A stretch of DNA of 64,000 nucleotides from Thermoplasmata archaeon (GTDB lineage: Archaea > Thermoplasmatota > Thermoplasmata > Thermoplasmatales > Thermoplasmataceae). The position numbers and the translations under genes are program-made. The notes under the pieces were generated by a model. That model worked only from the letters and a program-made list of their open reading frames with translations, was not told the DNA's origin and did not search any database. Shown here piece after piece: positions 16,623 to 50,672 of the stretch; the stretch's first letter is position 1; each line of letters opens with the position of its first letter. Where the stretch lies: the NCBI GenBank assembly GCA_021846395.1, contig JAJZXB010000009.1, positions 1 to 64,000 of the forward strand. The letters run 5' to 3'.

Positions 16623-18533
16623 TCACTTATTTATTATTTCAGCCAATTTATCTGTATTTCCAACTATGAAGCACTTATTAATATCGCAGACGTTGATTTT
16701 TCCATCGTTTGATGAAAGCATAAAATAGTTGTTTGGGTAATATTTTTTAATAGAATCCAGTTTTTCTCCATCTGCCTCTATTTTATAGAATTTTAGTTTT
16801 TTGAAAAAAGCATCAACAGTTGCAGAAAAAAACAGTGGTTTTGATGCCAGTTCATCGTATACGTTCCTCAGTGAAGCATCAATAACACTGTCATATTTGT
16901 TATTTATATAGCCGTATACCATCAAATTGTCAATGGCAATTGAAAAGCCAGATGGTATGGCATTATCATAACTTTCCTTCAATTTAATAATTTCTGGATG
17001 GTCTGTTTCATAGAACCCGCCATTTTCAGTATCATAAAATTTTTTCACCATATTTCCCGTTATTTCCTCAAAATATTTCATGTACACATCATTCAAAGAA
17101 GCCTCATAAAGATATAAAAGGCCTGATGAAAAGAATGCATAATCATCAAGAAAGCCTTCTATTGAAATATCATTCTCTCTGTACCTGTGGTAAAGAATAT
17201 TGTTTTTGTACATTTTAGATATGATAAAATCTGCTGCATTTTCTGCGTATTCAAGCATATCACGATCTGAAAAAACCATTGAGGATATGGATAGGGCTTT
17301 TATTACTAGCCCATTAATATCGGCAAGTATTTTATCATCAATCAACGGTTTTACTCTTTTATTCCGCACGTCATACAATTTTTTAATATTCACTTCCATA
17401 TTTTTGTTGTAAATTTCCTCAGGAGAGCCGGAAAAATAAAGTATATTTCTGCCAGTTAGCCGATAATTATTGTCATAAAAATTTCCAGCTTCAGAAACAT
17501 CATAGGATTTGGTAAATTCCCTATCTGTAATCTGCGATATTTCATCATATGTCCATGTATAGTATTTGCCCTCCTCATTTTCAGAATCCGCGTCTATTGC
17601 AGTATAAAACGCCTTTCCAAACATTTCATTCTTTAAAAACTGAAAAATTTCATAGGCCACATTTTTGTAAAAATCATTTTTTGTTATGGAATAGATGTAA
17701 GTATAAGCCATTAATGCCATAGCCTGATCGTATGCCATTTTTTCAAAATGCGGTATTCTCCACAATGCATCTGTTGAATATCTGTGGAAACCATATCCCA
17801 CCTGATCATAAACACCACCAAGTCGCATCATTTTTAAGGTTTTTTCTGACATTTCAAGTGCTTTTTTATCATTATAATTTTTATAATAATCCAGTAAAAA
17901 TATAATGTGCTGAAATGAGAGGAACTTTGGGGCAGCACCAAAACCACCATATTCCTCATCATAATTACCCTTCATAGATTTAAATGCTGACTTGACTATA
18001 TTCTCATAATTTATTTCATCGCCCTTTCTTTTTACATTATTATGGTTTATCGCACCCATAACAGCATCTCCATTTTTTTCAAGCTCCGATCTTTTATTCT
18101 TCCAGAAATAATGGACGGTATCACATAAATCCATTAAACCGATCATATTATTTCTTGAAGTTTTTGGTATGTATGTGAATGAAAATACTGGCTTTTTGTC
18201 AGGGGTTAAAACTACATTTAGTGGCCATCCGCCCTGTCCCGTCATAATCTGGCTCATAGTCATATACAAATTGTCTATATCCGGTCTTTCTTCCCTGTCA
18301 ACCTTGATGCATATAAATGTATCATTCATTTTATCTGCAACATCCTTATCATTAAAACTCTCCAGATCCATTACATGACACCAGTGGCAGGTTGAATATC
18401 CAATGCTTAAAAATATAGGTTTATCCTCATTTCTTGCTTTGGTGAAAGGCTCATCCGACCAGGGATACCAGTTAATGGGATTTTTTGCATGTTCCAATAA
18501 ATAAGGGCTTTTTTCATTAACCAATTTATTCAT
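16623..18533 (-). CDS. thioredoxin-fold / six-hairpin protein of the DUF255 (YyaL/SPATA20) family
   Basis: A 636-residue conserved protein. The N-terminal 150 residues are a thioredoxin-like domain with the redox motif STCHWCHVM (C49, C52) and the signature start [17 protein letters not shown]. The rest is an alpha/alpha barrel resembling glycoside hydrolases and N-acylglucosamine epimerases ([23 protein letters not shown]). Full length is usually near 650-700, so the C terminus may be slightly short. Biochemical function is not established for the family. It is monocistronic here. Confidence 0.92.
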
Positions 18534-29264: not shown

Positions 29265-29723
29265 TCAGTCATCAAGCCGGTAAAGAGCTGTTGGGTCCTC
29301 CCTGAATGTAGATAATACGGTAATGGTGCTGCTTCTTTCAATTCTTTCTATGCTGGATAATTTATTGACTATTGCTTCAAGATTTTTTCTCCCCTTTGCC
29401 TTTATAATTACTATAAAGTCATAATCACCCAGAACATAATAAACAGAACTGATCCCCTCAATTTTGGATATCTCTTCACCTATTTTAACGGCATAATCAG
29501 GAGCATATTTTGCCCTTATCATTGATATTGCAGTTAATTGTTCCGGTAAATTCTCCTCATTGAGCTCCGGAATAAACCCCTTTATTATTTTCTCTTCTTC
29601 TAATTTTTTAAGTCTCTTCTGTACAGACGATTTTGAAATTTTAACATGTTCTGCAATGGTCTGTAAATTGTTTGTTTTCAGTCTCATCATTGAATTTATT
29701 ATATCTTTGTCCTTTTTATCCAT
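29265..29723 (-). CDS. Lrp/AsnC-family transcriptional regulator
   Basis: About 152 residues. The N-terminal HTH starts MDKKDKDIINSMMRLK and includes AEHVKISKSSVQKRLKKLEEEKII. The C-terminal ligand domain has the RAM-type pattern (SMIRAKYAPDYAVKIGEEISKI, then VYYVLGDYDFIVIIKAKG). Start M at 29723 gives the usual Lrp N terminus. It is transcribed away from the pyrimidine catabolic operon across a 190-base AT-rich gap, the classic layout for a local regulator, so control of that operon by a pathway metabolite is likely but inferred. Confidence 0.9.
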   Translation of the reverse strand: MDKKDKDIINSMMRLKTNNLQTIAEHVKISKSSVQKRLKKLEEEKIIKGFIPELNEENLPEQLTAISMIRAKYAPDYAVKIGEEISKIEGISSVYYVLGDYDFIVIIKAKGRKNLEAIVNKLSSIERIERSSTITVLSTFREDPTALYRLDD

Positions 29724-29879
29724 ATATAGTAATATCATTCAATAATATATTTTATTTTTATTTGTGATGATAAATTTTAACAGTCATTATTATATATTTT
29801 TTCCTTATCACATTATTATTGAAATAAAAATATTATTTTTTATCTTAAACCGATATAATGTATTGATTTCATCCCAAAT

Positions 29880-29894
29880 TTTATATATAAGTTA
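29880..29894 (+). promoter_or_regulatory. TATA-like box of the pyrimidine catabolic operon
   Basis: TTATATATAAG at 29881-29891 lies about 30 bases before the ATG at 29916 of the first operon gene. This matches the archaeal TATA box spacing for a leaderless or near-leaderless transcript. No ribosome binding site precedes that ATG, while the downstream genes of the operon have one or are coupled. Confidence 0.55.
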
Positions 29895-29915
29895 GAATTA
29901 TGATTATTGATAATA

Positions 29916-31262
29916 ATGGAAACTGAAATAGGTAAACATAATTATTCAACTGAAAATACTTTTGTCACATGGAGCCGGCAGAAAAACTGGAACCCTTTAA
30001 AGGTGGTTTCAGCTGATGGTTGTTATTTCAAGGATTCCAACGGTAAAAAATACCTTGATATGTCCTCACAATTAATGTGTTCCAATCTTGGGCACGGGAA
30101 TAAAAAAATAATAGAATCAATAAAAAACCAGGCCGAGACACTACCCTATATATCCCCATCTTTTGATACAGACATAAGGGAAGAGGTGTCCATGAAGTTA
30201 AAAACCATACTCCCCGACAATCTCACAAAATTTTTTTATGGTACTGCAGGAACAGAAGCAAACGAAGCGGCTATAAAAATAGCAAGAATGTATATGGCTG
30301 ATGGAAAAAAAAATAAAATCATATCCTTTTATAATTCCTACCATGGCTCAACTCTTGGCAGCCTGCAACTCACTGGAGATTTCAGAAGAAAACTTGTTGA
30401 TTCCTATGAAAATGCTCCAGGATTTTTAAGAATGTCCCCACAGTTTTGCTATCATTGTCCGTTCAATCTCAAGTATCCCGAGTGCAATATTGCATGTGCA
30501 GAAAATCTGGAATATACAATAAAGAATGAAGGAAATGTTGCTGCAGTTATCCTTGAACCTGTTACAGGAACAAATGGTGTTGTCGTTCCCCCGAAGGAAT
30601 TTCTTCCCAGAATTAGGGAAATTACCCGTGAAAACAACATTCTTTTAATTGCGGATGAAGTGATGACGGGATTCTGCAGAACAGGAGAGTGGTTCGCAGT
30701 GGATCATTACAAAGTTAAACCAGATATATTAACGGCGGCAAAAGGGATAACCGGAGCCTATGCACCACTATCATTAACTGCAGTTGACAGAAAGATTGCC
30801 GATTTCTTCGACGACAATATATTTGCGCATGGCCATACATATGAGGCACATCCATTGATGCTTTCTGCAGCATCAGCAGCAATAGATGAATACAAGGAAA
30901 GAAAAATTCTGGAACATGTAAGGGAAATGGCCCCTGTATTTACGAAGAAATTAAACGCATTGAAAGAGAAGCATCCATCGGTTGGTGATGTGAGAAGCAT
31001 AGGGCTGTTTGGTGCTGTTGAACTCAATAAAAACAGGGATAAAAAAATACCATTCAGCACTGCAGATGACAAAATAGCTGGAAGGCCAATGATTGTGAAC
31101 AGTGTTGCAAAATATGCCATGGAACACGGAGTCTATATAAGTACATGGATTTCGCATTTTATAGTGGCACCACCACTGATAATTAACATGAAGGAGCTTG
31201 AGGAGGGTTTCAGAGTAATAGATGAAGCTCTGAATATATCGGATAAGGAGGTTGTAAAATGA
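29916..31262 (+). CDS. class III omega-aminotransferase (beta-alanine aminotransferase candidate)
   Basis: PLP-dependent fold type I aminotransferase of about 448 residues. The PLP loop GTAGTEANEAAIK, the LIADEVMTGFCRTG segment with the cofactor Asp, and the Schiff-base Lys in TAAKGITGAY (about K276) are present. A Cys-rich insert (CYHC...CNIAC) occurs in some relatives of this subfamily. As first gene of the operon it most simply converts beta-alanine and a keto acid to malonate semialdehyde. It could also use 3-aminoisobutyrate from thymine. The ATG at 29916 is preferred to the TTG three codons upstream. Confidence 0.88.
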   Translation: METEIGKHNYSTENTFVTWSRQKNWNPLKVVSADGCYFKDSNGKKYLDMSSQLMCSNLGHGNKKIIESIKNQAETLPYISPSFDTDIREEVSMKLKTILPDNLTKFFYGTAGTEANEAAIKIARMYMADGKKNKIISFYNSYHGSTLGSLQLTGDFRRKLVDSYENAPGFLRMSPQFCYHCPFNLKYPECNIACAENLEYTIKNEGNVAAVILEPVTGTNGVVVPPKEFLPRIREITRENNILLIADEVMTGFCRTGEWFAVDHYKVKPDILTAAKGITGAYAPLSLTAVDRKIADFFDDNIFAHGHTYEAHPLMLSAASAAIDEYKERKILEHVREMAPVFTKKLNALKEKHPSVGDVRSIGLFGAVELNKNRDKKIPFSTADDKIAGRPMIVNSVAKYAMEHGVYISTWISHFIVAPPLIINMKELEEGFRVIDEALNISDKEVVK

Positions 31263-32725
31263 AAAGTGAAAGTATGGAATATACAATAAAGAATTATATA
31301 GATGGAGAGAAGCTAGACAACGTTGGGAATACAGAATACAGGGTTTACAATCCCGCATTTGGAAAACACATATCGTCAGTTTATGATACCGATAAGGATA
31401 TGGTAAACAAAGCTGTGGATCACGCCTATGATGCGTTTTTAAAATGGTCAAAAGTACCGATAACTGATAGAATAAAATACCTTTTTAAACTTGAAAACCT
31501 CATGAGAGAGAACATTGACGAACTGGCCAAAATGGTAACAATTGAACATGGAAAAACTTTCAAGGAATCTCAGGGAGAAGTGATGAGGGCAATAGAAAAT
31601 ATTGAAGCTGCATGTTCTTCAACATACAATATCATGGGAAGAAACAATAAAAATATTTCAGCAGGCATTGATGAGGAAATGATCAGAGTTCCAATGGGCG
31701 TATTCGCCGCAATAGCTCCCTTTAATTTTCCTGTTATGGTTGCATTCTGGTTCATTCCATATGCAATAGGTCTTGGCAACACAATTATTGTAAAGCCATC
31801 AGAAAAAACACCGCTGACACTTCAAAAAACCATTGAACTTTTTGATAAGGCTGGCTTTCCAAAGGGTGTTATAAGCATAGTAAATGGTGCCGTTGAAACT
31901 GTAAATGCATTGTTAACAAATGGTAAAATTTCTGGAATAAGCTTTGTAGGCTCAACAACTGCGGCAAAATATATTGTAAGCACAGCTGTAAATAACCATA
32001 AAAGATTTCAAGCAGGAGCATCGGCGAAAAATTATGAGCTCGTTATGCCCGATGCGAACGTTGAGAAGGTAATACCACATCTTATTTCATCTTTCTATGG
32101 AAATGCGGGAGAACGATGTTTAGCGGGTTCGGTTCTTGTAACATTGCCGGAAAATCATAAAAAAATCGTTGATTTGTTCAAAAAACAGGCAAAAGATATT
32201 AAACTGGGCTATGGATTGGATAATGATGTCAGTATGGGGCCACTAATAAGATCAGAACACAGGGAAAGAGTTTTGGGTTATATAGATTCCGGCATCAATG
32301 AAGGTGCAGACCTCATGCTTGATGGAAGAACATTTGATTATAAAAAATATAGTGATGGGTATTTCCTTGGCCCATCAATATTTGATAATGCTTCACCGGA
32401 TATGACAATAGTAAAGGAGGAAATTTTTGGACCTGTTGCAAGTGTTATTGAGGCAAAAAATTTTGAGGATGCCATTGAAATAATAAATAAAAGCAGGTAT
32501 GGAAATGCATCAACCATATTCACAAAATCCGGTGAATATGCGGAAAAATTTGTGGAGGAAATACAGGCTGGAAATATAGGTGTGAACATTGGAGTTGCCG
32601 CTCCAATAGCATTCTATCCATTCAGTGGCTACAGGGATTCCTTTTTTGGGGATCTACATGCACAGGGTGGACTTGACCACACAATGTTTTTCACAGATAG
32701 CAAAACCATAATAAAAAGGTGGTAA
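31259..32725 (+). CDS. mmsA: methylmalonate/malonate-semialdehyde dehydrogenase (CoA-acylating)
   Basis: Aldehyde dehydrogenase superfamily, 488 residues, of the CoA-dependent branch. The Cys nucleophile is C287 in GNAGERCLAGS. The position of the usual Glu base carries the GASAKNYELVMPDA sequence typical of MMSDH, which uses CoA for release. The N-terminal cofactor motif APFNFPVMVAFWFIPYAI is also typical. It would oxidise malonate semialdehyde to acetyl-CoA with CO2 loss (or methylmalonate semialdehyde to propionyl-CoA). Its ATG overlaps the aminotransferase stop, so the two last pathway steps are coupled. Confidence 0.92.
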   Translation: MKSESMEYTIKNYIDGEKLDNVGNTEYRVYNPAFGKHISSVYDTDKDMVNKAVDHAYDAFLKWSKVPITDRIKYLFKLENLMRENIDELAKMVTIEHGKTFKESQGEVMRAIENIEAACSSTYNIMGRNNKNISAGIDEEMIRVPMGVFAAIAPFNFPVMVAFWFIPYAIGLGNTIIVKPSEKTPLTLQKTIELFDKAGFPKGVISIVNGAVETVNALLTNGKISGISFVGSTTAAKYIVSTAVNNHKRFQAGASAKNYELVMPDANVEKVIPHLISSFYGNAGERCLAGSVLVTLPENHKKIVDLFKKQAKDIKLGYGLDNDVSMGPLIRSEHRERVLGYIDSGINEGADLMLDGRTFDYKKYSDGYFLGPSIFDNASPDMTIVKEEIFGPVASVIEAKNFEDAIEIINKSRYGNASTIFTKSGEYAEKFVEEIQAGNIGVNIGVAAPIAFYPFSGYRDSFFGDLHAQGGLDHTMFFTDSKTIIKRW

Positions 32726-32746
32726 AAAAATATAAAAGGTGATTGA

Positions 32747-33787
32747 ATGAGTTTGGAAATAGATTTTGAAGGAGTGAAATTTAAAAATCCGTTCTGGATT
32801 GGATCAGGGCCAACGAGCGGAACAGGTGATAAAATTGTACAGGCCCTGAAAGCTGGCTGGGGAGGAGTTGTTATAAAGACCGTTGGTGATTCTATTGTGA
32901 GAAAGGGAGTAAGGCCAATGTATGCTGCCATGAGAAACAGCAATAAAGACCTTGTTGTCTTTGAGAATATAGAATTGATAACTGAGGATAATCTCGAAAC
33001 ATGGGATAAATATATAAAAATGGTCAACAGAGAAATACCGAATGCACCAATAGTATTCAGTATAATGGGGTCTTCTGATATTTCTGAATGGTCAAAGCTT
33101 GCAAGATGGTCAGAAGACCACGGTGCAAATTTAATTGAGTTGAATTTTGGTTGCCCCCATGGTGAACCGGAAAAAAGGTCAGGAGCATATATTTCACAGC
33201 ATCCTGATCTTGTATATGATTATACAAAAGAAGTTGTACAATCAGTTGGTGTTCCTGTAATATCAAAATTATCGCCAAATGTTACGGACATAACTGAAAT
33301 TGCAAAAAATGCTGAAAGAGCTGGTGCAAAAGCAGTTTCGGCAATAAACACAGTATCCTGCCTCATGGGAATGGATATTGAAAGGGAGATGTTATCACCG
33401 CCTGTTTTTGGGTATACAACCTATGGTGGCTTATCTGGTCCTGGTGTAAAACCTATAGGATTAAGGGCCGTATCATCCATATCCAAGAATACAAAACTCA
33501 CCATAAGTGGAATAGGTGGAATAAGTAGCTGGCAGAATGCCATAGAATATATAATGTGCGGGGCAACATCAGTTCAGGTTGTTACTGATACTGTTATGCA
33601 TGGATTCAATCAGATAAAATCCTGGACAGAAGGCATGGAGGATTATCTGAAAAGACACAATTACGGAAGCCTTGAAGAAATAAAGGGAAAGGTTGTACCA
33701 AATATCAGGGAATACAGTTATCTTGAAACATTGATAGCTGAAAGGGATTCCATTGATGATGAAATGAAAAAGATAAGGGAGGCATGA
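32747..33787 (+). CDS. dihydropyrimidine / dihydroorotate dehydrogenase-like flavoprotein
   Basis: FMN-binding TIM barrel of 346 residues, closest in appearance to the PreA/DPD reductase domain (FKNPFWIGSGPTSGTGDKI at the start; INTVSCLMGMDIE and TTYGGLSGPGVKPIGLRAVSSI later). It would reduce uracil to dihydrouracil. Two oddities: it ends without the ferredoxin-like double 4Fe-4S domain of PreA, and in the catalytic loop after ELNFGCPHG the Cys of known enzymes is replaced by Ile149 next to Ser150. No PreT-type electron-input subunit is encoded nearby. A good GGTGAT ribosome binding site precedes the ATG. Confidence 0.85.
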   Translation: MSLEIDFEGVKFKNPFWIGSGPTSGTGDKIVQALKAGWGGVVIKTVGDSIVRKGVRPMYAAMRNSNKDLVVFENIELITEDNLETWDKYIKMVNREIPNAPIVFSIMGSSDISEWSKLARWSEDHGANLIELNFGCPHGEPEKRSGAYISQHPDLVYDYTKEVVQSVGVPVISKLSPNVTDITEIAKNAERAGAKAVSAINTVSCLMGMDIEREMLSPPVFGYTTYGGLSGPGVKPIGLRAVSSISKNTKLTISGIGGISSWQNAIEYIMCGATSVQVVTDTVMHGFNQIKSWTEGMEDYLKRHNYGSLEEIKGKVVPNIREYSYLETLIAERDSIDDEMKKIREA

Positions 33788-33796
33788 GGTGTAAAA

Positions 33797-34681
33797 ATGA
33801 GTGAAAAAAATATTGTTAAAATTGGAATGGTACAGATGGGTTCAGTTCCAGAAAAACAGGAGAATATAGAGAAAGCGATATCATATGCAGATGAGGCTGT
33901 ATCACAGAAAGCAGATTATATTGTATACAATGAATTATTCACAACTCCTTATTTTCCTGCTACTGAGGATATAAAATACTTCGAATACGCGGAAAAGGAT
34001 GATGGTGAAACTGTACAAATTTTCAGGAAATATGCTAAGGAACACAAGGTTGGCATTATTCCAACTATTTTTGAGGAAGACCGAACCGTTCGCGGAATTT
34101 TCTATGACACGGCAATTTTTATTGACAAAAGGGGAGATGTAATGGGAAAATATAGAAAAATACACCTGCCCCAGCTCAATGGTTACTATGAGAAATATTA
34201 TTTTCATCCAGGCAGCGGTTATCCTGTATTTCAGGAGGATTCATATAGGATAGGTTCAGTTATATGCTATGATCGACATTTTCAAGAAGGTCCAAGGATA
34301 CTGGCAATTAAGGGTGCAGATATAGTTTTTATTCCAACAACGACAAATTTTTATCCCGAAACATGGGAACTTGAAACAAGGGCACATGCTGCTTTCAATA
34401 CCATGTTTGTGGTTGGAGTTAACCGTACCGAGGAGGAATTTGAGGGGAAAAGAATAAAATATCTTGGAAAGAGTCTCATAGCCGGTCCATCAGGTGAAAT
34501 AGTTTATCAGATGTCAGATAAGGAAGGAGTATCAGTTACCGATATTGATGTAAATCTCATAAGAAAAAGAAGGGAAAAAGCACCATTCCTTGCCGATAGA
34601 AAGGTTATTGCATACGAAGAGCTGGTTGATAACGATATGGGCAACATTCATTATGATGACTTTGTAAAGGAGGAGAAATGA
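33797..34681 (+). CDS. nitrilase-superfamily amidase (beta-ureidopropionase candidate)
   Basis: 294 residues with the complete Glu-Lys-Cys triad of carbon-nitrogen hydrolases: E46 in YNELF, K121 in KYRKIHLP and C157 in ICYDRHFQEG. The last block resembles N-carbamoyl amino acid amidohydrolases and beta-ureidopropionases. In this operon it should hydrolyse N-carbamoyl-beta-alanine to beta-alanine, CO2 and ammonia. A GAGGTG site precedes the ATG, and its stop overlaps the first permease start by ATGA. It could act on other N-carbamoyl amino acids. Confidence 0.9.
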   Translation: MSEKNIVKIGMVQMGSVPEKQENIEKAISYADEAVSQKADYIVYNELFTTPYFPATEDIKYFEYAEKDDGETVQIFRKYAKEHKVGIIPTIFEEDRTVRGIFYDTAIFIDKRGDVMGKYRKIHLPQLNGYYEKYYFHPGSGYPVFQEDSYRIGSVICYDRHFQEGPRILAIKGADIVFIPTTTNFYPETWELETRAHAAFNTMFVVGVNRTEEEFEGKRIKYLGKSLIAGPSGEIVYQMSDKEGVSVTDIDVNLIRKRREKAPFLADRKVIAYEELVDNDMGNIHYDDFVKEEK

Positions 34682-36300
34682 CAGATAAGGTTGAGATCGA
34701 AAATGGGCAGGTTTACCTTGATAAAGAAAATAAAATAAATGATTATCTCTGGAATCCTGATTTTAATCCGGTTCCAAAAGACCTGAGAAAATGGGGGGCA
34801 TCAACATTTGCCAGTCTGTGGATTGCGATGGCTGTCATAATTCCAACATGGACTCTGGCAACAGTAGGTATTGCCCTCGGATTGAGCTGGACACAGGTAA
34901 TAATTTATATGTTTCTTGGTAATCTTATAGTTCTTATACCAACAATAATACAATCACACGGAGGTGCCAGATATGGTGTTGCTGAACCTCAATTAACAAG
35001 AAGCAGATGGGGGATATATGGTGCCCAGATACCATCATGGATAAGAAGCATTATTTCAATGGGATGGTGGGGCATAGAATCATTCATTATTGCAGAGGCT
35101 ACAACATATATTTATTTCATAGTAACACGAGGCTCTATAAGTCAAAAGCTTATAAATGAAATTGGCCCTGGAACACTTCCAAAGTTTTTCCCCGTGATTT
35201 TCTGGACAATATTTGCCCTGGTTATAATAGCACAGTTAGCGATATTCTATATCTCACCTCCGGTAAAGGGCCAAAGGCCCTTGAAGATACTGGCAAAGGC
35301 AGCGGCTCCAATAATGGCAGTGAGCTTCATTATAATGTTCTATCTATTTATGTCTGCGGGAAAATTTAATTTTACACCGATAACAACATACAACACTCAT
35401 GGAGCCCCACTGATGATACAGTTTGCATTCTTGAATTCAAATGTGGCTTACTGGGCTACAATGGCAGTGAGCATGCCTGATTATACAAAATATGCAAAAT
35501 CCCAATTTTCACAGACCGTGGGTCAAATGCCAATGCCATTTATAATGGCAGGAGTCGGGGCAATGGCGTTGCTAGGTGCAGGGGCATCCATAAGTGCTGG
35601 CTGGCTTTCTATACCATCATCACCGGCTTTCTTTGGATACAGTTCACTGGAATTAATGGCCATTTATTTTCCTGCGTATTATTCAGTACCATTACTTATA
35701 GCTGTCATAATAGGAACTTTCTCTGTAAACGTTTTTGCAAACTCAATAGCACCTGGCTATGATATTGCAAATACATATCCTACAAAGTTGACATGGTTCA
35801 AAGGAATAGTCATAGGTGTGGCGATAAGTCTTGTCCTGGGAGCATATACGGCCTACAGCACTAGTGTTTATCATTATGTTTTTGGGTGGCTACTTGCCTA
35901 TGGTGCTTTACTTGGTATGGTTGAAGGTGTTATAGTCTTTGATTACACTATTATGAGGCACTTCAAAATAAATATAAAAGACTTATTTTTAAAAACAGGA
36001 TCATACAGATTTCTTTACGGCTTTAATCCCGCACCAATTATAAGCGGAACAATTGCTGTTTTTATAACCTACATATATTACTGGGGAATATCAAAGGCAT
36101 ACATTTTTGCACTACTTTACAACAATTCGTGGATTTCTGCATTCTTCATTGCAGGCATACTTGACCTTGTATTGAATGTAGTATGGGTTATACCAAAATA
36201 TGCAAAGTCGCAAAAAGGAACTTTGAAGACAGGCTATATGGATCAGGAAACACAGGCATTGTTTGACTCTGGTAAAATTGAAACCTCAGGAAAAAAATGA
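34678..36300 (+). CDS. NCS1-family nucleobase permease (first copy)
   Basis: Polytopic transporter of 540 residues with about twelve membrane segments. NCS1 markers are the NDYLWNPDFNPVPKDLRKWGA N-terminal motif, HGGARYGVAEPQLTRSRWG, and SMPDYTKYAKSQ in the middle. The family carries uracil, cytosine, hydantoin or allantoin by cation symport. Location in the middle of a pyrimidine degradation operon makes a pyrimidine base or dihydropyrimidine the likely substrate. It is coupled to the amidase by ATGA and followed after 11 bases by a paralogue. Confidence 0.93.
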   Translation: MTDKVEIENGQVYLDKENKINDYLWNPDFNPVPKDLRKWGASTFASLWIAMAVIIPTWTLATVGIALGLSWTQVIIYMFLGNLIVLIPTIIQSHGGARYGVAEPQLTRSRWGIYGAQIPSWIRSIISMGWWGIESFIIAEATTYIYFIVTRGSISQKLINEIGPGTLPKFFPVIFWTIFALVIIAQLAIFYISPPVKGQRPLKILAKAAAPIMAVSFIIMFYLFMSAGKFNFTPITTYNTHGAPLMIQFAFLNSNVAYWATMAVSMPDYTKYAKSQFSQTVGQMPMPFIMAGVGAMALLGAGASISAGWLSIPSSPAFFGYSSLELMAIYFPAYYSVPLLIAVIIGTFSVNVFANSIAPGYDIANTYPTKLTWFKGIVIGVAISLVLGAYTAYSTSVYHYVFGWLLAYGALLGMVEGVIVFDYTIMRHFKINIKDLFLKTGSYRFLYGFNPAPIISGTIAVFITYIYYWGISKAYIFALLYNNSWISAFFIAGILDLVLNVVWVIPKYAKSQKGTLKTGYMDQETQALFDSGKIETSGKK

Positions 36301-36311
36301 TGGAAAAATAA

Positions 36312-37955
36312 ATGAAAGAAAATGATAAAACATGGAGAGAAAGCGTAACATCATATGATCCTAAAAATGGATATGTTGGCCTCAAGCAAAAATTTCCTGA
36401 GAATAAATATTTGTGGAATGAGGATTTCCAGCCAACCGGAGAAAGAAATAGAAACTGGGGTTCATGGACATATTTCGCAATATGGTTTGGGATGGCCGTG
36501 GAGGTTGAATCATGGAGTCTTGTTTCAGTAGGATTTGATTTCGGGTTTAACTGGTTCTGGTCATTGATGGCAGTGTTCATTGGTAATGTAGCAGTATTAA
36601 TTCCCATACTAATCATATCACATGGGGGCGCCAAATACGGAATGCCTGAAACATCTCTAACAAGAAGCAGATGGGGTACCTACGGCACATGGATTCCCTC
36701 TATAGTTAGGGGACTGATTGGAGCAGGATGGTGGGGCATAGATACGTGGATAATAACTGAAAGTTTCGCCGCCATGTACATACTTTCATCTGGTTTGAAA
36801 CCAGAGCTGATGACCTTTGTAAACTCTGGAAACGCAACCCCATTTACTATAGCTTCTATAAATCCCTCTCTTTTTATAGTTGTTTTCATAGCAACAATTT
36901 TTGTCAGGTTGATCATACTTTACTTTTCGCCTCCCAAAGCCGGCCAAAAACTTTTGAAGAAGATAATATGGGTTGTACCGTTCATAGCTTTCCTTGGCTT
37001 TATATTCCTCTTTTATTACAACGGAAGCAGTGTAGGATGGAATTTTTCACCAATTTTTCGGATAAAAACCACCGTTTCAGGATCCATTTTCTGGTATGCC
37101 TTGATAGGTTTAGTAAATGCAAACATCTCATTTTGGGCTACAATGGCTATAAGTATGCCTGATTACACAAGATATGCAAAATCTCAAAAATCTCAGATAT
37201 GGGGGCAGTTAACATTGCCATTTATGATGATTGGAATTGGAGTCATGGCCCTATTAACCGCAGGTTTGAGTGTGGTAAAATACCATACCGCCATATATGA
37301 TCCCATACTTTTAGCGACAATCTCTCTCCCACCATATGTTGCATACGTTACTTTGTTCCTGTTAATGCTTGGGGTATTGATGGTGAATGTTTTTGCTGAT
37401 ACCGTGGGGCCAGGATATGATTTTTCAAATATATATCCTAAATTAATACCATGGTTTGGCGGTGTTTTGATTGTTGTTGCCATAGCCGCTGCACTGCAAT
37501 CTTGGAGTTTTTATGCCAGTGCCGGTGCGTATGTTGAAACGTGGCTGGATGGATATGGTGCCATACTTGGGGCGGTTGAAGGGGTTCTGATATTTGACTA
37601 TGTGATAATAAGAAGATTCAAGTTTGAAATAGCTGATACATTTATGCCAAATGGCAGATTTAGATACTGGCTTGGAATAAATCCCGCGGCATTAATAGCC
37701 TTTGTTCTGGCAATGTTTTTAACATATCCGCCATCATCATATCTTCCTGTAACTTTTTCTCTGTATCCATTCCAATCGTGGATTTATCAGGGATCATGGA
37801 TTTCAACAATTTTAATATCAGGTCTAATATATATTTTGCTTATGAAATACTGGATTATACCAAAATATCAGCCAGAATTGAAGGGAAGTCTGTTGCACGG
37901 GTATATAGCTGAGGATACAAAAAAGATCTTCGAGGGCAAAGGTGATGGGCAGTGA
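36312..37955 (+). CDS. NCS1-family nucleobase permease (second copy)
   Basis: 547 residues, a clear paralogue of the preceding gene: the same KYLWNEDFQPTGERNRNWGS, HGGAKYGMPETSLTRSRWG and SMPDYTRYAKSQ blocks, but considerably diverged elsewhere. Tandem duplication followed by specialisation is the simple explanation, for example one copy for uracil or cytosine and one for a hydantoin-like or reduced base. Its stop overlaps the GTG start of the cytosine deaminase gene. Confidence 0.93.
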   Translation: MKENDKTWRESVTSYDPKNGYVGLKQKFPENKYLWNEDFQPTGERNRNWGSWTYFAIWFGMAVEVESWSLVSVGFDFGFNWFWSLMAVFIGNVAVLIPILIISHGGAKYGMPETSLTRSRWGTYGTWIPSIVRGLIGAGWWGIDTWIITESFAAMYILSSGLKPELMTFVNSGNATPFTIASINPSLFIVVFIATIFVRLIILYFSPPKAGQKLLKKIIWVVPFIAFLGFIFLFYYNGSSVGWNFSPIFRIKTTVSGSIFWYALIGLVNANISFWATMAISMPDYTRYAKSQKSQIWGQLTLPFMMIGIGVMALLTAGLSVVKYHTAIYDPILLATISLPPYVAYVTLFLLMLGVLMVNVFADTVGPGYDFSNIYPKLIPWFGGVLIVVAIAAALQSWSFYASAGAYVETWLDGYGAILGAVEGVLIFDYVIIRRFKFEIADTFMPNGRFRYWLGINPAALIAFVLAMFLTYPPSSYLPVTFSLYPFQSWIYQGSWISTILISGLIYILLMKYWIIPKYQPELKGSLLHGYIAEDTKKIFEGKGDGQ

Positions 37956-39136
37956 TCTTAAAAAATTGCCTCTCATACCCAAACAATGATATTATTGACA
38001 TAAAAATTAAAGATGGATTTGTATCAGATGATTCTGATGATGATATAATCATAGACGTAGGAAAAAACATGGTAATACCCTCGTTCTCAGAGCTTCACAT
38101 TCATCTTGATTCTGCTTTTATTCTTGATGAGGATTTGGAAAATAAAAGTGGAACCCTGGAAGAGGGAATATCATTATGGGATAAATACAAAAAGGAAAAA
38201 TTGAATCCTTCTGAATTGCGAGGTAGGGTAATGAAGGCAATACACCTTCTTGAGAATAATGGCGTAACAAGAATAAGAACAAATGTAGATGTTTCTGATC
38301 CAACTCTCACAGCTTTGAAGGAAATGATGAGGATTAAAAACGAGGTTAAAAATGTTGATTTGCAGATTACAGCATTTCCACAGCATGGATTATTTACATG
38401 TACAGATAATTCTGAACTTCTTGAAAAATCTCTTGAGCTTGGGGCAGATAATGTGGGTATTGCGCCACATCTAGAAGATACGTATGAAGAGGGAATAAAA
38501 TCTATAAAGACAGCATATGATCTTGCGGAAAAGTATAAAAAAAACATTGATGGTCATATAGATGAAACAGATGATCCTGAGTCAAGATTTATAGAGTTGC
38601 TAGCAAAAGAAAGAATTAAAAGAAATTTTAAGGGATCTGTTTCAGCCGGGCATTTAACAGCAATGCACTCGTATAATAACCAATATGCAAACAGGGTAAT
38701 AGGGCTTATAGCAAGGGCAGGTATTGATGTAATATCAAACCCGCTGATAAATATGCATCTGCAGGGAAGATACGATTCATATCCAAGGATCAGGGGAGTT
38801 ACAAGGATAAGGGAGATGCTTGACCATGGTGTCAATGTATCTATAGGCCAGGATTGTATTATGGATCCATGGTACCCCCTTGGAAGTGGCGACCCGCTCG
38901 ATGCCCTTTTTATGGCATTGCATGCTGAACCCTTGATGACACCGGATTTGCTTGAGCATTCACTGAACATGATCACATATAATGCTGCAATGGCATTCGG
39001 CGCAAAAAACTATGGATATTCCTATGGCTCACAGGGAGACTTTATTGTAACCGATGCAAAAAATCCAGTTGAAATAATACAATACCGTCACAGTAGGAAG
39101 GTAATAAGAAAAGGTTTCTTAATAAAAGGTGATTAA
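37952..39136 (+). CDS. codA: cytosine deaminase (CodA type)
   Basis: Amidohydrolase-superfamily deaminase of 394 residues. The metal and catalytic motifs follow bacterial CodA in order: ELHIHLDSAF, HIDETDDPES (His and catalytic Glu), SAGHLTAMHSY, and the Asp in GQDCIMDPWYPLGSGDPL. It would convert cytosine to uracil and ammonia, feeding the reductive pathway. It starts with GTG, which overlaps the preceding TGA (GTGA). It ends in GGTGATTAA directly before the dihydropyrimidinase ATG. Relatives deaminate isoguanine or creatinine, so specificity needs assay. Confidence 0.9.
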   Translation: MILKNCLSYPNNDIIDIKIKDGFVSDDSDDDIIIDVGKNMVIPSFSELHIHLDSAFILDEDLENKSGTLEEGISLWDKYKKEKLNPSELRGRVMKAIHLLENNGVTRIRTNVDVSDPTLTALKEMMRIKNEVKNVDLQITAFPQHGLFTCTDNSELLEKSLELGADNVGIAPHLEDTYEEGIKSIKTAYDLAEKYKKNIDGHIDETDDPESRFIELLAKERIKRNFKGSVSAGHLTAMHSYNNQYANRVIGLIARAGIDVISNPLINMHLQGRYDSYPRIRGVTRIREMLDHGVNVSIGQDCIMDPWYPLGSGDPLDALFMALHAEPLMTPDLLEHSLNMITYNAAMAFGAKNYGYSYGSQGDFIVTDAKNPVEIIQYRHSRKVIRKGFLIKGD

Positions 39137-40516
39137 ATGAGTAGTTTATTGATAAAAAACGGAAAAATATGTCTTTCTGATGGAATGATTGAGAAAGACA
39201 TGTATATAGAAGATGGCAAAGTTAAAAAGATTGGAATTCTAGGCAATGATGCGGATGAGGTAATGGACGCCAAGGGCAAATTATTGATTCCGGGCGTTAT
39301 TGATAGTCACACGCATATGGAATTTCCATTCATGTCTGAAGTGACAGCCGATGATTTTTACCACGGTACAAGGGCAGCTCTTGGTGGTGGTGTAACCACT
39401 ATAGTTGATTTCATCACGCCATCAAAGAATGAAAATCCTATGGATGCCTATAAAAGATGGAGAAATAAAGCCGATCCCAAAGTTGTATCGGATTATGCAT
39501 TGCACTGTATTTTAAGAAATGGAGATAGAAACACACTGGATTCAGTCAAGCCACTAATTGATGAGGGTGTAATATCCTTCAAACTTTTTATGGCATATAA
39601 AAATGAACTGCTTCTTGATGATGAATCCCTGTACGATGCAATTAAGGAAATTTCCAAATACGGAGGCGTCACTGCAATACATGCGGAAAATGGTGCCATA
39701 GTTGATAAAAAGACGGAGGAATTGTTAAAAGAAAACAAAACAGAGCCTGTCAATCATTATTATTCTAGACCGGAAATTGTTGAAATTGAAGCTGCCAATA
39801 GAATAGCCACAATAGCGTCTATGATAGGGAAAAATGTGAAAATGTATATGGTTCACACCTCAACCTTTGAGGCAGTAGATATTTTCAGAAAATACAGGGA
39901 AAGGGGTTATAAATTCTTCAATGAAACAACACCGAATTATTTAACTTACGATTATACAATTTTTGAGAGCAAATATGGTTATAGATACATAATGAGCCCC
40001 CCATTCAGAACAGAGGATGAATTGTCAGGTTTATGGGGAAGAATGGCAAATAACGAATTATCCATTATGGGAAGTGATCACTGTGTTTATTCTGATGAGC
40101 AGAAAAAAAGGCATTCTGATAAAGTACCACCATTCAATGAAGTGCCTAATGGCACTCCGGGTACTGAAACAATATTGCCCCTATTGTACACAAATGGCGT
40201 TTTAAAGAATAAAATTACAATGGACCAGCTAGTTACAATAACAAGCAAAAATACAGCAGATATGTTCGGGCTTAAATCCAAGGGAAATCTTCTTCCTGGT
40301 TACGATGCAGATATAGCAATAGTCGATCCTAAAAAAGAGTTTAAAGTTTCATATGAAATGCTTCATAGCAATATAAAATACAGCATTTTTGATGGGATGA
40401 TATTGAAGGGATTTCCCGAAACTACAATACTCCGCGGCAGGAAGGTATTTGAGAATGGAAATATATTATCAGATGCGGGAACGGGCAAATACGTAAGGGG
40501 TACGATTGGATATTGA
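39137..40516 (+). CDS. hydA: dihydropyrimidinase / D-hydantoinase
   Basis: Binuclear-metal amidohydrolase of 459 residues opening dihydrouracil to N-carbamoyl-beta-alanine. H58 and H60 lie in DSHTHMEFP. The carboxylated Lys is K149 in ISFKLFMAYK. Further ligands are in AIHAENG and VHTS, and the catalytic Asp is in MGSDHCVYS. Sequence and length match dihydropyrimidinase rather than dihydroorotase or allantoinase. It is the last intact gene of the operon; a perfect palindrome follows four bases after the stop. Confidence 0.93.
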   Translation: MSSLLIKNGKICLSDGMIEKDMYIEDGKVKKIGILGNDADEVMDAKGKLLIPGVIDSHTHMEFPFMSEVTADDFYHGTRAALGGGVTTIVDFITPSKNENPMDAYKRWRNKADPKVVSDYALHCILRNGDRNTLDSVKPLIDEGVISFKLFMAYKNELLLDDESLYDAIKEISKYGGVTAIHAENGAIVDKKTEELLKENKTEPVNHYYSRPEIVEIEAANRIATIASMIGKNVKMYMVHTSTFEAVDIFRKYRERGYKFFNETTPNYLTYDYTIFESKYGYRYIMSPPFRTEDELSGLWGRMANNELSIMGSDHCVYSDEQKKRHSDKVPPFNEVPNGTPGTETILPLLYTNGVLKNKITMDQLVTITSKNTADMFGLKSKGNLLPGYDADIAIVDPKKEFKVSYEMLHSNIKYSIFDGMILKGFPETTILRGRKVFENGNILSDAGTGKYVRGTIGY

Positions 40517-40519
40517 TAT

Positions 40520-40543
40520 AATCTGTTAACATATTAACAGATT
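40520..40543. promoter_or_regulatory. perfect 10-4-10 palindrome after the catabolic operon
   Basis: AATCTGTTAA at 40520-40529 and its exact complement at 40534-40543 flank CATA. It starts four bases after the dihydropyrimidinase stop and about 40 bases before the ATG of a decayed transporter. It may be an operator for that transporter's promoter or a terminator stem for the operon. A TATA-like TTTATAAC lies between it and the ATG. Confidence 0.5.
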
Positions 40544-40580
40544 CCTTTATTAATTATTTATAACATGGAGTTATGATTTT

Positions 40581-41507
40581 ATGGCTGATGTAAAAAAATT
40601 CAAACATTAAAAGGTGGATTAAGGTCGACAGCCGGGCATTTATATTATTTGCTATGGGAATGTTTCTTGAAGCCTATATTTTTGGAATGCTATTAATGGC
40701 CACCACATGGGTAAAAACCACTCCCACTTAAATCCCTTCCCTTATCATGGGCACCATTATGGCTCATAATAGGAATAGCCTTCAGTTACTCATATATTCT
40801 TATACTGCTATTTTTGGCGATTCTGCTCTTTGGATCAGAGGGTGAAATTAACACAATAATGGCACTTTCTCAGGAAATTATGCCAACAGAGCACAGAAGT
40901 TCAACAATGTTGCCTGAACCCAATTTCATACCCCTTGGCGGACTCGTGCTTTTTGCAACCTTAACAACTTCCTTTGCAGGAACAACCGGATTTGGCTTAA
41001 TAGCGTACGTTCTTGGGCCTATATTCTTTTTATCGCTCACTGCAATAATCCTTCTTGTGGCAAGTCTCGCTGCTTTTGGTACTGGTTTTATAGGTTTTTA
41101 CGGCGAAAAAATTGCCAGAAAAAATATGCTTCTATGGGGGAAATGTGGGCGCACTGATTTTCACATTGATAACATACATAACTATCGGAACATGGACAAA
41201 ATACATCCTGTTATTCTGGTTCCTTGTGATAGCTTTAAATGCCTTTGTTCAGCTGGGCTATCTGGCTGAAGGCACTCTTAAATCCGAAGTAGGGGATACA
41301 AAATCACGTGGATCACTCACCGCACTAGTAAGATTTTTGGGCATAGGGTTATACATCCCAACAATTTACATTACATCTTCATATTCACTAAACCAGTATA
41401 TATTATTCAACATAGTAGTATGGATAGCTGGTTCTGCAGGAGCTGTTGCATGGTTTATAGGAGGCAAGGAAACTGGAAAGGGAATACCAGTAGAAATGGC
41501 TGATTAA
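40581..41507 (+). pseudogene. decayed MFS transporter
   Basis: Remnant of a major facilitator permease at the end of the pyrimidine operon. It begins MADVKK at 40581, then shifts frame in a run of seven A (40592-40598) into WIKVDSRAFILFAMGMFLEAY, a first membrane segment. A stop follows at 40729-40731. Reading resumes one base later with SWAPLWLIIGIAFSYSYIL and an MFS loop (MALSQEIMPTEHRSS). A third shift near the G run at 41136-41140 leads to the last three or four membrane segments, ending at 41507. Total coding capacity is about 300 codons, well short of a normal MFS protein, so an internal part is also lost. Confidence 0.85.
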
Positions 41508-41953
41508 TTTTTATCCTTTTTAATTTTTTCCAGAACATTTTTTAATGTTTCCCAATCATGTATAATTTCATAAGAAAGTGAGTAATCAAGCATCAGATTG
41601 TTCTGGTTCCCTGAAAATTTTCTTGTGTCTGTCTGGAATCCTATGCAAATTTTATTCATTGCATATGCCATTCCAAGCTCAACACACGCACCCTCATCAG
41701 GCACTCTTCCGTCCATAATCATCAATAAAATCGTGGAATTTTTCAGTGCATCAACATCCCTTTGAAAGACTCTCCTGCTTGTTTCTGGCCATAATTCTGG
41801 CTTTTTTAGCAGCAATTCATCCTCACCACCATCCCTCTGTGGAAGGTATGTTGTGAAACCAAGAGACCTGACAATGCCGTCAACCTTTTCATTAAATGCT
41901 ATTTCCATTTCATTGAAAAGTGGTGCCGAGATGTAAATATCATACTTGACCAT
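41504..41953 (-). CDS. nucleoside 2-deoxyribosyltransferase
   Basis: 149-residue Rossmann-like enzyme of the nucleoside 2-deoxyribosyltransferase family, which transfers deoxyribose between bases or hydrolyses deoxynucleotides. The N-terminal IYISAPLFNEMEIAFNEKV, the FQRDVDALKNSTILLMIMDG segment and the catalytic Glu in DEGACVELGMAYA are all present. It overlaps the end of the decayed transporter on the opposite strand by four bases. Together with the nucleoside hydrolase upstream it would release free bases for the adjacent catabolic operon. Confidence 0.9.
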   Translation of the reverse strand: MVKYDIYISAPLFNEMEIAFNEKVDGIVRSLGFTTYLPQRDGGEDELLLKKPELWPETSRRVFQRDVDALKNSTILLMIMDGRVPDEGACVELGMAYAMNKICIGFQTDTRKFSGNQNNLMLDYSLSYEIIHDWETLKNVLEKIKKDKN

Positions 41954-42002: not shown

Positions 42003-42875
42003 TTAATTGAAAAATTTTCCATAGATACTCTTAATATATTCACTTTTATCCATAGAACATGCAACGTATTTATTTGAGTTTTTATTTTCATTCAGTGTTG
42101 TAACGCCATTACTGTCAACGGAAATATCACCATTAATATACTTAAAGGCATTTTTATTAAAATAAGCCATTGTCGCGATCGGGTCATGCATTTCAAATGA
42201 ATTATACCTTTCAACCATATATTTTAAGGTTTTATGCATGAAGTCTCCAATAACTCCCGTATCCTTCATTTTTTTTAAATCATCATTCTTTACCGAAAAA
42301 TCTGGATTCATCGTAACGTCCAGTGGCATTATATATTCCTTTATATTGGAATTAAATACTGTTTTAGCAGCTTCCGGATCATAATATATATTGAATTCTG
42401 CATTACCGACATTGCCATTACCATAAGAATTCGAATGGAATGCCCCGCCCATTATAATTATTTCATTTATATTTTTTTCAATATTTTCATCCATTAATAG
42501 CAACAATGCAATTGATGTTAAGGGACATGTATTTATGATCGTGTATTTCTTCCTTTTTAGTGCTTCATACATCTTCAAAATACCATTTTCACATTCATCA
42601 ATAGCGTAATTGAAGTTATAGCCTGCCATACCATTTTTTCCATGGTAATCTTCATAATACGCATCTCTTACCAGAGGTTTGCTTGATCCTTTATAAACAG
42701 GTACTGAAGAATTTAAAATTTTTACCACTCCTGCAGTATTTGTGATTGCATTTTCAATATGAGAATTGCCTGAGGAGGCAACTATAAAATCAGGTCTTAT
42801 CCCATGCTTTTCCAGAAGTATTATTGCGTAAGCATCGTCAACTCCTGTATCAACATTCAATATCACATTATTCAT
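42003..42875 (-). CDS. inosine-uridine preferring nucleoside hydrolase
   Basis: Calcium-dependent ribonucleoside hydrolase of 290 residues. The signature Asp cluster is at the N terminus (NVDTGVDDAYAI). A second metal or ribose site is visible around IIIMGGAFHS and the NIYYDPEAAKTVF segment, and MHDPIATMAYF carries the late catalytic His and Asp. It cleaves uridine, inosine or similar nucleosides to base plus ribose. It is about 50 bases upstream of the deoxyribosyltransferase on the same strand; both probably share a transcript and supply uracil or cytosine. Confidence 0.92.
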   Translation of the reverse strand: MNNVILNVDTGVDDAYAIILLEKHGIRPDFIVASSGNSHIENAITNTAGVVKILNSSVPVYKGSSKPLVRDAYYEDYHGKNGMAGYNFNYAIDECENGILKMYEALKRKKYTIINTCPLTSIALLLLMDENIEKNINEIIIMGGAFHSNSYGNGNVGNAEFNIYYDPEAAKTVFNSNIKEYIMPLDVTMNPDFSVKNDDLKKMKDTGVIGDFMHKTLKYMVERYNSFEMHDPIATMAYFNKNAFKYINGDISVDSNGVTTLNENKNSNKYVACSMDKSEYIKSIYGKFFN

Positions 42876-49191: not shown

Positions 49192-50672
49192 GTATTTGTT
49201 TAGCTCACCCAATACCACATAATTCTTTTCTGAGTATTTTGTCCATCTCCACAAACATGTTCTTTTTCTGGAAGTTCCATGTTGACATGAGTGATGAAAT
49301 ATACTGGTAGTTCTGAGATCCTGACTCTGACCTGAATGTACCTATGATCTTTCTTACAACTACATGCTCCTTTATGGATTGTTCAGCAAGGTTGTTTGTG
49401 GGTTCCATTCCAGGATAGAGGAGGCAGGTGAACCATGAGCCAAGTCCATTGATTATGTATTTAACCGGCTTTTTCAATTCTCTGTACTCCCCATATCTGT
49501 TTGCAATACCATTAATCTTTTTGTCGAATTCTTCCTTCACGGACATTCTGTAATCCATGTCTTCAGATTTCAGTGATTCTTTCAGTTCTTTGAACATGGC
49601 ATGTATCTCATCGGACAGTTCCTTCCCCTGTTCGTTGTCCTTGAATGCATCCACCTCCCTGATCAAGTGTGCCCAGCATCTCTGTATAATTGTAAGGTAA
49701 GAATATGCCCTCCATCCATCAACTATGACAGGGCCACGGAAATCTTCACCCATGGTCTCCTTAACAACATCCCTTCCCCGTGAATCCACGATCACTACCA
49801 GAATATCATTCTCTGCAGACCTGAAAGACCATAGCCAGTATTTTTTCCCATCAACATGGAAGCCTGTTTCATCGATATGCACCCATTTAGATTTGCTGAT
49901 GCGTTTTCCTATTGCATTATATTCCACTTTGCATGCCTCACCCACTCTGAGAAGTGCATCCTCTATACCCTTTGTACTGAGATCGAGGTTGTTGTTAACA
50001 CTGATGAAATCCTGAACCTTCCTTATGACGCCCCTCATATTGTATTTCAGCATGGTGATATAGTTCAGGAGGTATATTCCCATATCACCTTTCTGCGGAC
50101 AATCCTTATGTTTGGATTTTACCTCGGACCCACAGTTATTGCAGTGGTAAATATCCAGATCATATTCAGTAACCCTGACATCCTGCGGTGGGGGAATATC
50201 GAGGATTGTCTTCTTTTCTGTTTTGATTGGTGAGCCGAGGCTGCTGTTGCACTTTGGGCATTTATCCATGGATACGTGTATTGTTTCGTCCGGATGTTCC
50301 ATTACACGTGTTGCACCCCTATGCCCTATGGGGGCACCCCTCTTCCCGGGTATTTGTTCTTCCTGTGTTTTTCCCATGTTTATATTTCCCATCTTCTGGG
50401 ATGAGGGTGGTGTGTGTGGATTCTCATACTTGAGAATACGGCTCTTCAATTTTTCATTCTCATTAGAAAGTGAGAGGATCTTGGCTTTTAGATCATTATT
50501 TTCGGAGATAAGTTCTATAACATGTTTCTCCAGTTTAATAATATATATTTCATTAGTGTTATTGTTGTCAGAAGAATCCATGTACCATTATTATTTACTC
50601 ATGAAAATACTTTACGACTCAGGAAAATAACCATTATGGATAAAATATAGAAAAATGGAGCTAAACAAATAC
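49192..50672 (-). mobile_element. complete IS66-family insertion sequence
   Basis: A 1481-bp element bounded by perfect 15-bp inverted repeats: GTATTTGTTTAGCTC at 49192-49206 and its complement at 50658-50672. It is flanked by the 8-bp direct duplication CAATTTTA. It carries one transposase gene and none of the small accessory genes found in long bacterial IS66 elements. The transposase stop codon overlaps the left inverted repeat. Exact repeats and duplication suggest a recent insertion. It landed at the stop codon of the GH12-type gene without altering its protein. Confidence 0.93.
49205..50581 (-). CDS. IS66-family transposase
   Basis: 458-residue DDE transposase. An N-terminal coiled coil (LEKHVIELISENNDLKAKIL) is followed by the TPPSSQKMG linker. 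A zinc-finger region holds CPKCNSSLG and YHCNNCGSE. The catalytic core has HIDETGFHVDGKKYWLW, the second Asp in VIVDGWRAYSYL, the CWAHLIREVD helix and the Glu in EPTNNLAEQSIK. It is full length with no interruption, so probably active. Its codon use looks less AT-extreme than neighbouring genes, in keeping with a mobile origin. Confidence 0.95.
   Translation of the reverse strand: MDSSDNNNTNEIYIIKLEKHVIELISENNDLKAKILSLSNENEKLKSRILKYENPHTPPSSQKMGNINMGKTQEEQIPGKRGAPIGHRGATRVMEHPDETIHVSMDKCPKCNSSLGSPIKTEKKTILDIPPPQDVRVTEYDLDIYHCNNCGSEVKSKHKDCPQKGDMGIYLLNYITMLKYNMRGVIRKVQDFISVNNNLDLSTKGIEDALLRVGEACKVEYNAIGKRISKSKWVHIDETGFHVDGKKYWLWSFRSAENDILVVIVDSRGRDVVKETMGEDFRGPVIVDGWRAYSYLTIIQRCWAHLIREVDAFKDNEQGKELSDEIHAMFKELKESLKSEDMDYRMSVKEEFDKKINGIANRYGEYRELKKPVKYIINGLGSWFTCLLYPGMEPTNNLAEQSIKEHVVVRKIIGTFRSESGSQNYQYISSLMSTWNFQKKNMFVEMDKILRKELCGIG

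Follow-up and report, generated by a model that had tools for sequence, protein, structure and literature searches.

How might uracil be reduced by a dihydropyrimidine dehydrogenase (DPD) that carries none of the modules known to deliver electrons to this enzyme? The question is raised by a locus at positions 29916-40516 of contig JAJZXB010000009.1 from a Thermoplasmata archaeon (assembly GCA_021846395.1), of which the first 64,000 nucleotides were analysed (the window). In our view, the locus is very probably an operon for reductive pyrimidine catabolism, with a short DPD that is fed by a general cellular electron donor. A sequence-only reading of the same DNA had proposed eight coupled plus-strand genes encoding every step from cytosine to acetyl-coenzyme A (acetyl-CoA). 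The open reading frames were found where that reading had placed them, and their families were confirmed by NCBIfam, Pfam and PDB searches. A candidate exists for each carbon step, but uracil reduction is left without a visible electron donor, and the pathway is therefore incomplete in gene terms. What the earlier reading had missed is that, judged by its sequence, the DPD-like protein is short and consists of the flavin mononucleotide (FMN) domain only.

The short-form, PreA-like DPD (32747-33787, +) is 346 amino acids long and scores 371.7 bits with the NF006183 profile (cut-off 335), matching only positions 3-342 of 422. The protein aligns with residues 533-847 of pig DPD. Cys136, situated in a CPHG motif, corresponds to catalytic Cys671 of the pig enzyme, and NIELI and NTV, two strings of the uracil pocket, are conserved (pattern NIELI...CPHG...NTV). 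NIELI is common to this protein and pig DPD, while PyrD proteins carry NA(I/V)GL instead. No CxxCxxC motif was found in the protein, which thus lacks a C-terminal [4Fe-4S] ferredoxin domain. Such a domain is present in the seven canonical PreA proteins compared; the window protein and its orthologues in three related genomes (L035, L036 and G002) stop just before the two [4Fe-4S] motifs of canonical PreA.

Simpler accounts of the short protein were considered and rejected. Truncation through a frameshift or assembly error is contradicted by the equal length of the protein in L035 and L036 and by the same C-terminus in G002. Loss of the DPD catalytic cysteine was rejected since the counterpart of pig Cys671 is the cysteine of CPHG, not the downstream one of ACGQ; pig DPD entry 1h7x departs from wild type exactly at the CPHG cysteine. 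Finally, the protein is not a second dihydroorotate dehydrogenase (DHODH). In a phylogenetic tree that included 23 PyrD sequences, it was placed outside these and in the PreA/DPD group, with support of 100/100. The biosynthetic enzyme is encoded elsewhere in the genome, where PyrD is paired with PyrK (C3:82.5-84.1 kb), so the PreA-like protein does not fill that role. The Dus (tRNA-dihydrouridine synthase) profile was also matched, at 2.7e-13. A structure prediction, built on 3 sequences, was set aside; its mean predicted local distance difference test score was only 54.8.

In NAD(P)H-dependent DPDs (PreA plus PreT, or the fused DPYD), the FMN/uracil domain with its catalytic cysteine is shared with the window protein, but both their ferredoxin domain and the PreT subunit, or the equivalent N-terminal module with flavin adenine dinucleotide (FAD), NADPH and iron-sulfur (Fe-S) sites, are absent from the window system. 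In the genome, which is 97% complete, the Fer4_20 Fe-S domain of PreT had no match, and the best hit obtained with a full-length PreT was one of just 19 bits, to a 324-aa frame. Since neither a PreT subunit nor an Fe-S domain was found, the FMN of the short DPD must take its electrons from a general cellular donor. The candidate reductants would be NAD(P)H acting directly, ferredoxin in its reduced state, or a flavoprotein shared with other reactions, for which the FAD partner PyrK would be an example. Direct use of NADPH is known for tRNA-dihydrouridine synthases, which are related and FMN-dependent (PMC9176250). On the ferredoxin side, the genome search returned 14 ferredoxin-domain matches and two matches to 2-oxoacid:ferredoxin oxidoreductases. 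We regard it as an evenly balanced possibility that the single-domain DPD is catalytically competent as it stands, its FMN alone reducing free uracil with electrons that come directly from NAD(P)H or from a general ferredoxin. If so, it would represent a distinct minimal class of DPD with an architecture common with plants.

The short plant enzymes (PYD1, OsDHPD) have the same architecture, a likeness that rests on published descriptions (PMC9930899, PMC2713857) rather than on sequence; the plant enzyme differs in being plastidial and ca. 400 aa long. In OsDHPD, the FMN and uracil sites are kept, the Fe-S, FAD and NADPH sites are missing, and no partner was found (PMC9930899); the partner of the plant short DPD was likewise called unidentified in PMC2713857. 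The clostridial PydAc resembles the window DPD in being encoded within a Pyd cluster and in having no FAD/NADPH module, but this ferredoxin-dependent enzyme retains two ferredoxin domains (PMC7332683), while the window protein has none. In a literature search made mostly without subscription journals, no description of a short DPD in a prokaryotic operon was found.

The absence of a reductant module would also suit a protein working in the opposite direction, i.e., a dihydrouracil oxidase using oxygen or another acceptor, in an operon whose starting material is dihydrouracil or hydantoins and not uracil. Dihydrouracil oxidases do exist among fungal class I DHODH-like proteins (PMC9585004). The fungal oxidases, however, resemble class I-A DHODH (Ura1), while the window protein falls within the PreA/DPD clade; dihydrouracil is an intermediate of the pathway and would be lost to an oxidase, and the cytosine deaminase and two nucleobase carriers encoded in the operon supply uracil, which can be used by ring opening only once it is reduced. 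We consider an oxidase improbable and take uracil reduction to be the predicted direction of the DPD step.

The distribution of the short form was surveyed with the PreA profile in genomes of the class and the phylum. Among 300 class genomes, the cut-off was passed only by this genus and one distant genome; among 390 phylum genomes, it was passed by this genus and two distant genomes (G231 and G346), whose PreA proteins carry the Fe-S domain and are thus of the canonical type. In G346, a distant member of Thermoplasmatota, a canonical PreT and an Fe-S PreA are encoded next to an aminotransferase and a CN-hydrolase (L052, 8750-13305). Both canonical and short forms of DPD thus occur within one archaeal phylum, the short form, among the genomes surveyed, in this genus only.

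The enzymes encoded around the short DPD account for the remaining steps. By homology, a uracil reductase, a dihydropyrimidinase and a beta-ureidopropionase are encoded together, as expected of a Pyd cluster, and an extension to acetyl-CoA is provided by an aminotransferase with beta-alanine as the likely substrate and a CoA-acylating malonate-semialdehyde dehydrogenase (MSDH). Cytosine and uracil, and possibly thymine, would be imported by two NCS1 nucleobase:cation symporters, A (34678-36300, +; TIGR00800 176 bits, PF02133 172 bits) and B (36312-37955, +; TIGR00800 205.6 bits, PF02133 213 bits). Cytosine would then be converted to uracil by a CodA-type cytosine deaminase with a GTG start (37952-39136, +; PRK09230 370 bits), which matches E. 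coli cytosine deaminase in PDB with 310 bits and aligns with it at the metal-ligand motifs. At the position of E. coli Asp314, the window CodA has a cysteine (GQDC, residues 299-302, ~38855); this site, which is variable among the aligned PDB entries, influences the use of 5-fluorocytosine in E. coli.

Uracil would next be reduced to dihydrouracil by the short FMN-only DPD with Cys136 as proton donor, and the ring opened to N-carbamoyl-beta-alanine by the dihydropyrimidinase (D-hydantoinase) encoded at 39137-40516 (+), which scores 443.6 bits with TIGR02033 (cut-off 393) and keeps the HTH motif, the FKLFMAYK lysine, and the His and Asp metal-ligand motifs. N-carbamoyl-beta-alanine would be split into beta-alanine, ammonia and CO2 by a nitrilase-superfamily amidase, the predicted beta-ureidopropionase (N-carbamoyl-beta-alanine amidohydrolase; 33797-34681, +; CN_hydrolase 1.4e-55). 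Around its nucleophile, this amidase reads CYDRH, where the carbamoylputrescine amidases compared have CWDQ and human beta-ureidopropionase has CYGRH; the arginine would fit a carboxylate substrate. The catalytic residues (Glu in NELF, Lys in YRK, Glu in YYEK and Cys in ICYDRH) match the tetrad E119/K196/E207/C233 of human beta-ureidopropionase (PMC10741476).

In the last two predicted steps, beta-alanine would be converted to malonate semialdehyde through transfer of one amino group by a class III omega-aminotransferase (29916-31262, +), and malonate semialdehyde to acetyl-CoA, through oxidative decarboxylation with CoA, by a CoA-acylating (methyl)malonate-semialdehyde dehydrogenase (MMSDH; 31259-32725, +). 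The MMSDH scores 493 bits with TIGR01722 (cut-off 448.5); its best PDB match is 1t90 (434.8 bits), and both the GERC nucleophile and the GASAKN segment are present. The aminotransferase reaches 405 bits with PRK06062, below the cut-off of 472, and its best PDB match is taurine:2-oxoglutarate aminotransferase (280 bits). Its nearest plasmid relatives, at 44% identity, are haloarchaeal and are encoded beside an MMSDH, in several records also with an Lrp regulator. Beta-alanine (or 3-aminoisobutyrate) is its putative substrate.

The same genes allow other readings of the operon's purpose. The dihydropyrimidinase profile does not separate dihydropyrimidinases from D-hydantoinases, N-carbamoyl amidases can be broad, and the PreA-like branch is long, so the substrates could be hydantoins or further cyclic amides for the ring-opening enzymes, and a different pyrimidine-like compound for the PreA-like protein. 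We find this very unlikely: CodA co-occurs with a DPD-type uracil-binding pocket, and the MMSDH and aminotransferase best fit beta-alanine or 3-aminoisobutyrate. Alternatively, the operon could serve mainly to produce beta-alanine for coenzyme A, or to salvage nucleobases, rather than for carbon and nitrogen catabolism; in some bacteria, the uracil pathway supplies the beta-alanine that goes into pantothenate (PMC7142369). Yet the two leading genes of the transcript encode enzymes that would turn beta-alanine into acetyl-CoA, and the regulator arrangement described below is of the BarR type, which is tied to beta-alanine degradation. A supply function is accordingly hardly to be expected, and pyrimidine catabolism remains the preferred reading.

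Several observations do weigh against this reading. As the genome is 97% complete, a PreT gene may possibly have been missed, although this is argued against by the absence of PreT beside PreA in four genomes. Recombinant OsDHPD, supplied with NAD(P)H but no other protein, was inactive (PMC9930899), and the short form may thus depend on a partner that has escaped recognition. With 1.74 changes per site, the branch leading to the PreA-like protein is long, and the protein could have changed its substrate along it. The top profile of the amidase is an N-carbamoylputrescine amidase model, if far under the cut-off of that model. NCS1 substrates are not readable from sequence, and both carriers score next against allantoin permeases.

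The genes are tightly packed and co-directional. Three of the operon junctions are overlaps of 4 bp (ATGA at 31259-31262, ATGA at 34678-34681 and GTGA at 37952-37955), and the remaining four are gaps of 21, 9, 11 and 0 bp. Archaeal ribosome-binding sites of the GGAGG, GGTGAT and AGGTG types precede most internal starts. An Lrp/AsnC-family regulator gene (29265-29738, -; AsnC_trans_reg 4e-12, HTH_24 8e-8) lies divergent from the omega-aminotransferase gene, as in BarR-type loci. By analogy with BarR of Sulfolobales (PMC4977709, PMC10201364), its product is a plausible beta-alanine sensor and would probably link operon expression to this intermediate. The two genes are separated by an AT-rich divergent promoter region of 177 bp (29739-29915), identified from the sequence and from alignment with L035 and L036. 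A TATA-like TTTATATATAAG is located ~25-35 bp upstream of the first operon ATG (29916), a position from which a nearly leaderless transcript would be expected. Inverted repeats are also found in the region, but are weak evidence in DNA so AT-rich. At the other end, a perfect 10-bp inverted repeat right after the last stop codon (40520-40543, +) is a possible transcript end.

In a single scan of genome contigs, the nearest public records were two Thermoplasmata metagenome-assembled genomes, L035 (TL1-4.bin46) and L036 (WH1.bin9), in agreement with the host assignment of the sequence-only reading. The order of the genes, with the Lrp gene divergent from aminotransferase, MMSDH, PreA, amidase, the two NCS1 carriers, CodA and dihydropyrimidinase, is kept in both genomes, at protein identities of 83-95% (L035) and 67-84% (L036). 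In G002, another relative, this order is spread over two contigs that end inside the amidase gene or close to it (64-87% identity), and the Lrp gene is also divergent. Retention in all three relatives shows that the order is not due to chance. In the comparison with L035, the ratio of nonsynonymous to synonymous substitution rates was 0.031-0.093 for the seven genes tested, with the lowest values for the amidase and PreA-like genes; these seven genes are thus under strong purifying selection. The second NCS1 permease of L035 (13567-14130) lacks residues 65-420 in-frame, the rest of that operon being intact; the loss is either a real deletion or an assembly error.

The earlier reading overstated the novelty of an archaeal operon of this kind. 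Pyd clusters that include MSDH and aminotransferase have been described in bacteria, and the pathway has been stated to be present in archaea (PMC7332683); a Haloferax volcanii cluster with an Lrp regulator, predicted to lead from uracil to acetyl-CoA, was reported in 2019 (PMC6801745). Together with a permease-containing Haladaptatus cluster and the amidase-aminotransferase-PreT-PreA locus of G346, these precedents weaken the claim. As in the window operon, the clusters of PMC7332683 and of a Cytobacillus spongiae plasmid (L047) combine a nitrilase-type amidase, PreA, dihydropyrimidinase, NCS1 carrier, MMSDH and aminotransferase in one locus; L047 differs in having PreT, a [4Fe-4S] PreA and a PucR regulator, and no CodA. 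The archaeal block is distinguished from bacterial Pyd clusters as one tight operon with a short PreA and no PreT.

The haloarchaeal clusters (H. volcanii pHV4; Haladaptatus L060) share dihydropyrimidinase, carbamoylase, MMSDH and the related aminotransferase (44%) with the operon, as well as a nucleobase permease in L060 and the Lrp regulator reported for H. volcanii, but their genes lie on both strands, their Zn carbamoylase is unrelated, and an LLM flavin oxidoreductase takes the place of PreA. On two haloarchaeal plasmids (L060, 8296-16701; L063, 7766-13135), MMSDH, aminotransferase, Zn carbamoylase and an LLM-class F420-type flavin oxidoreductase are encoded without PreA, in L060 along with dihydropyrimidinase and a cytosine permease; the oxidoreductase is a candidate for an unrecognised uracil reductase. 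The barR-aminotransferase locus of Sulfolobales shares the divergent Lrp regulator and omega-aminotransferase, with an adjacent MSDH in S. tokodaii; pyrimidine-degradation genes are not mentioned there in PMC4977709 and PMC10201364.

Directly 3' of the operon lies a decayed major facilitator transporter gene (40580-41507), frameshifted and shortened in the window; its L035 counterpart (16755-18044) is intact and encodes a 430-aa MFS/Sugar_tr protein. It is followed by minus-strand genes for a nucleoside deoxyribosyltransferase (41504-41953) and a nucleoside hydrolase (IU_nuc_hydro, 42003-42875), which could supply free pyrimidine bases. Farther away, the window encodes an IS66-family transposase (49205-50581, -) and another nitrogen-releasing enzyme, an arginine deiminase-family protein (14089-15330, -).

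The dehydrogenase on which uracil breakdown in plants relies is half-size, and papers of 2009 and 2023 still had no electron donor to name for it. The occurrence of a half-size enzyme in an archaeal operon that encodes all other steps but no partner suggests either that an FMN domain and a general donor suffice, or that some common protein of the cell acts as the partner; by analogy, a competent single-domain DPD would suggest an answer to the question of the missing partner of plant PYD1. A prokaryotic enzyme made of one soluble protein should be an easier system in which to address the plant question. With this locus, beta-alanine-linked pyrimidine catabolism, for which gene clusters occur in haloarchaea, is extended to acidophilic Thermoplasmata, which could obtain nitrogen from scavenged nucleobases.

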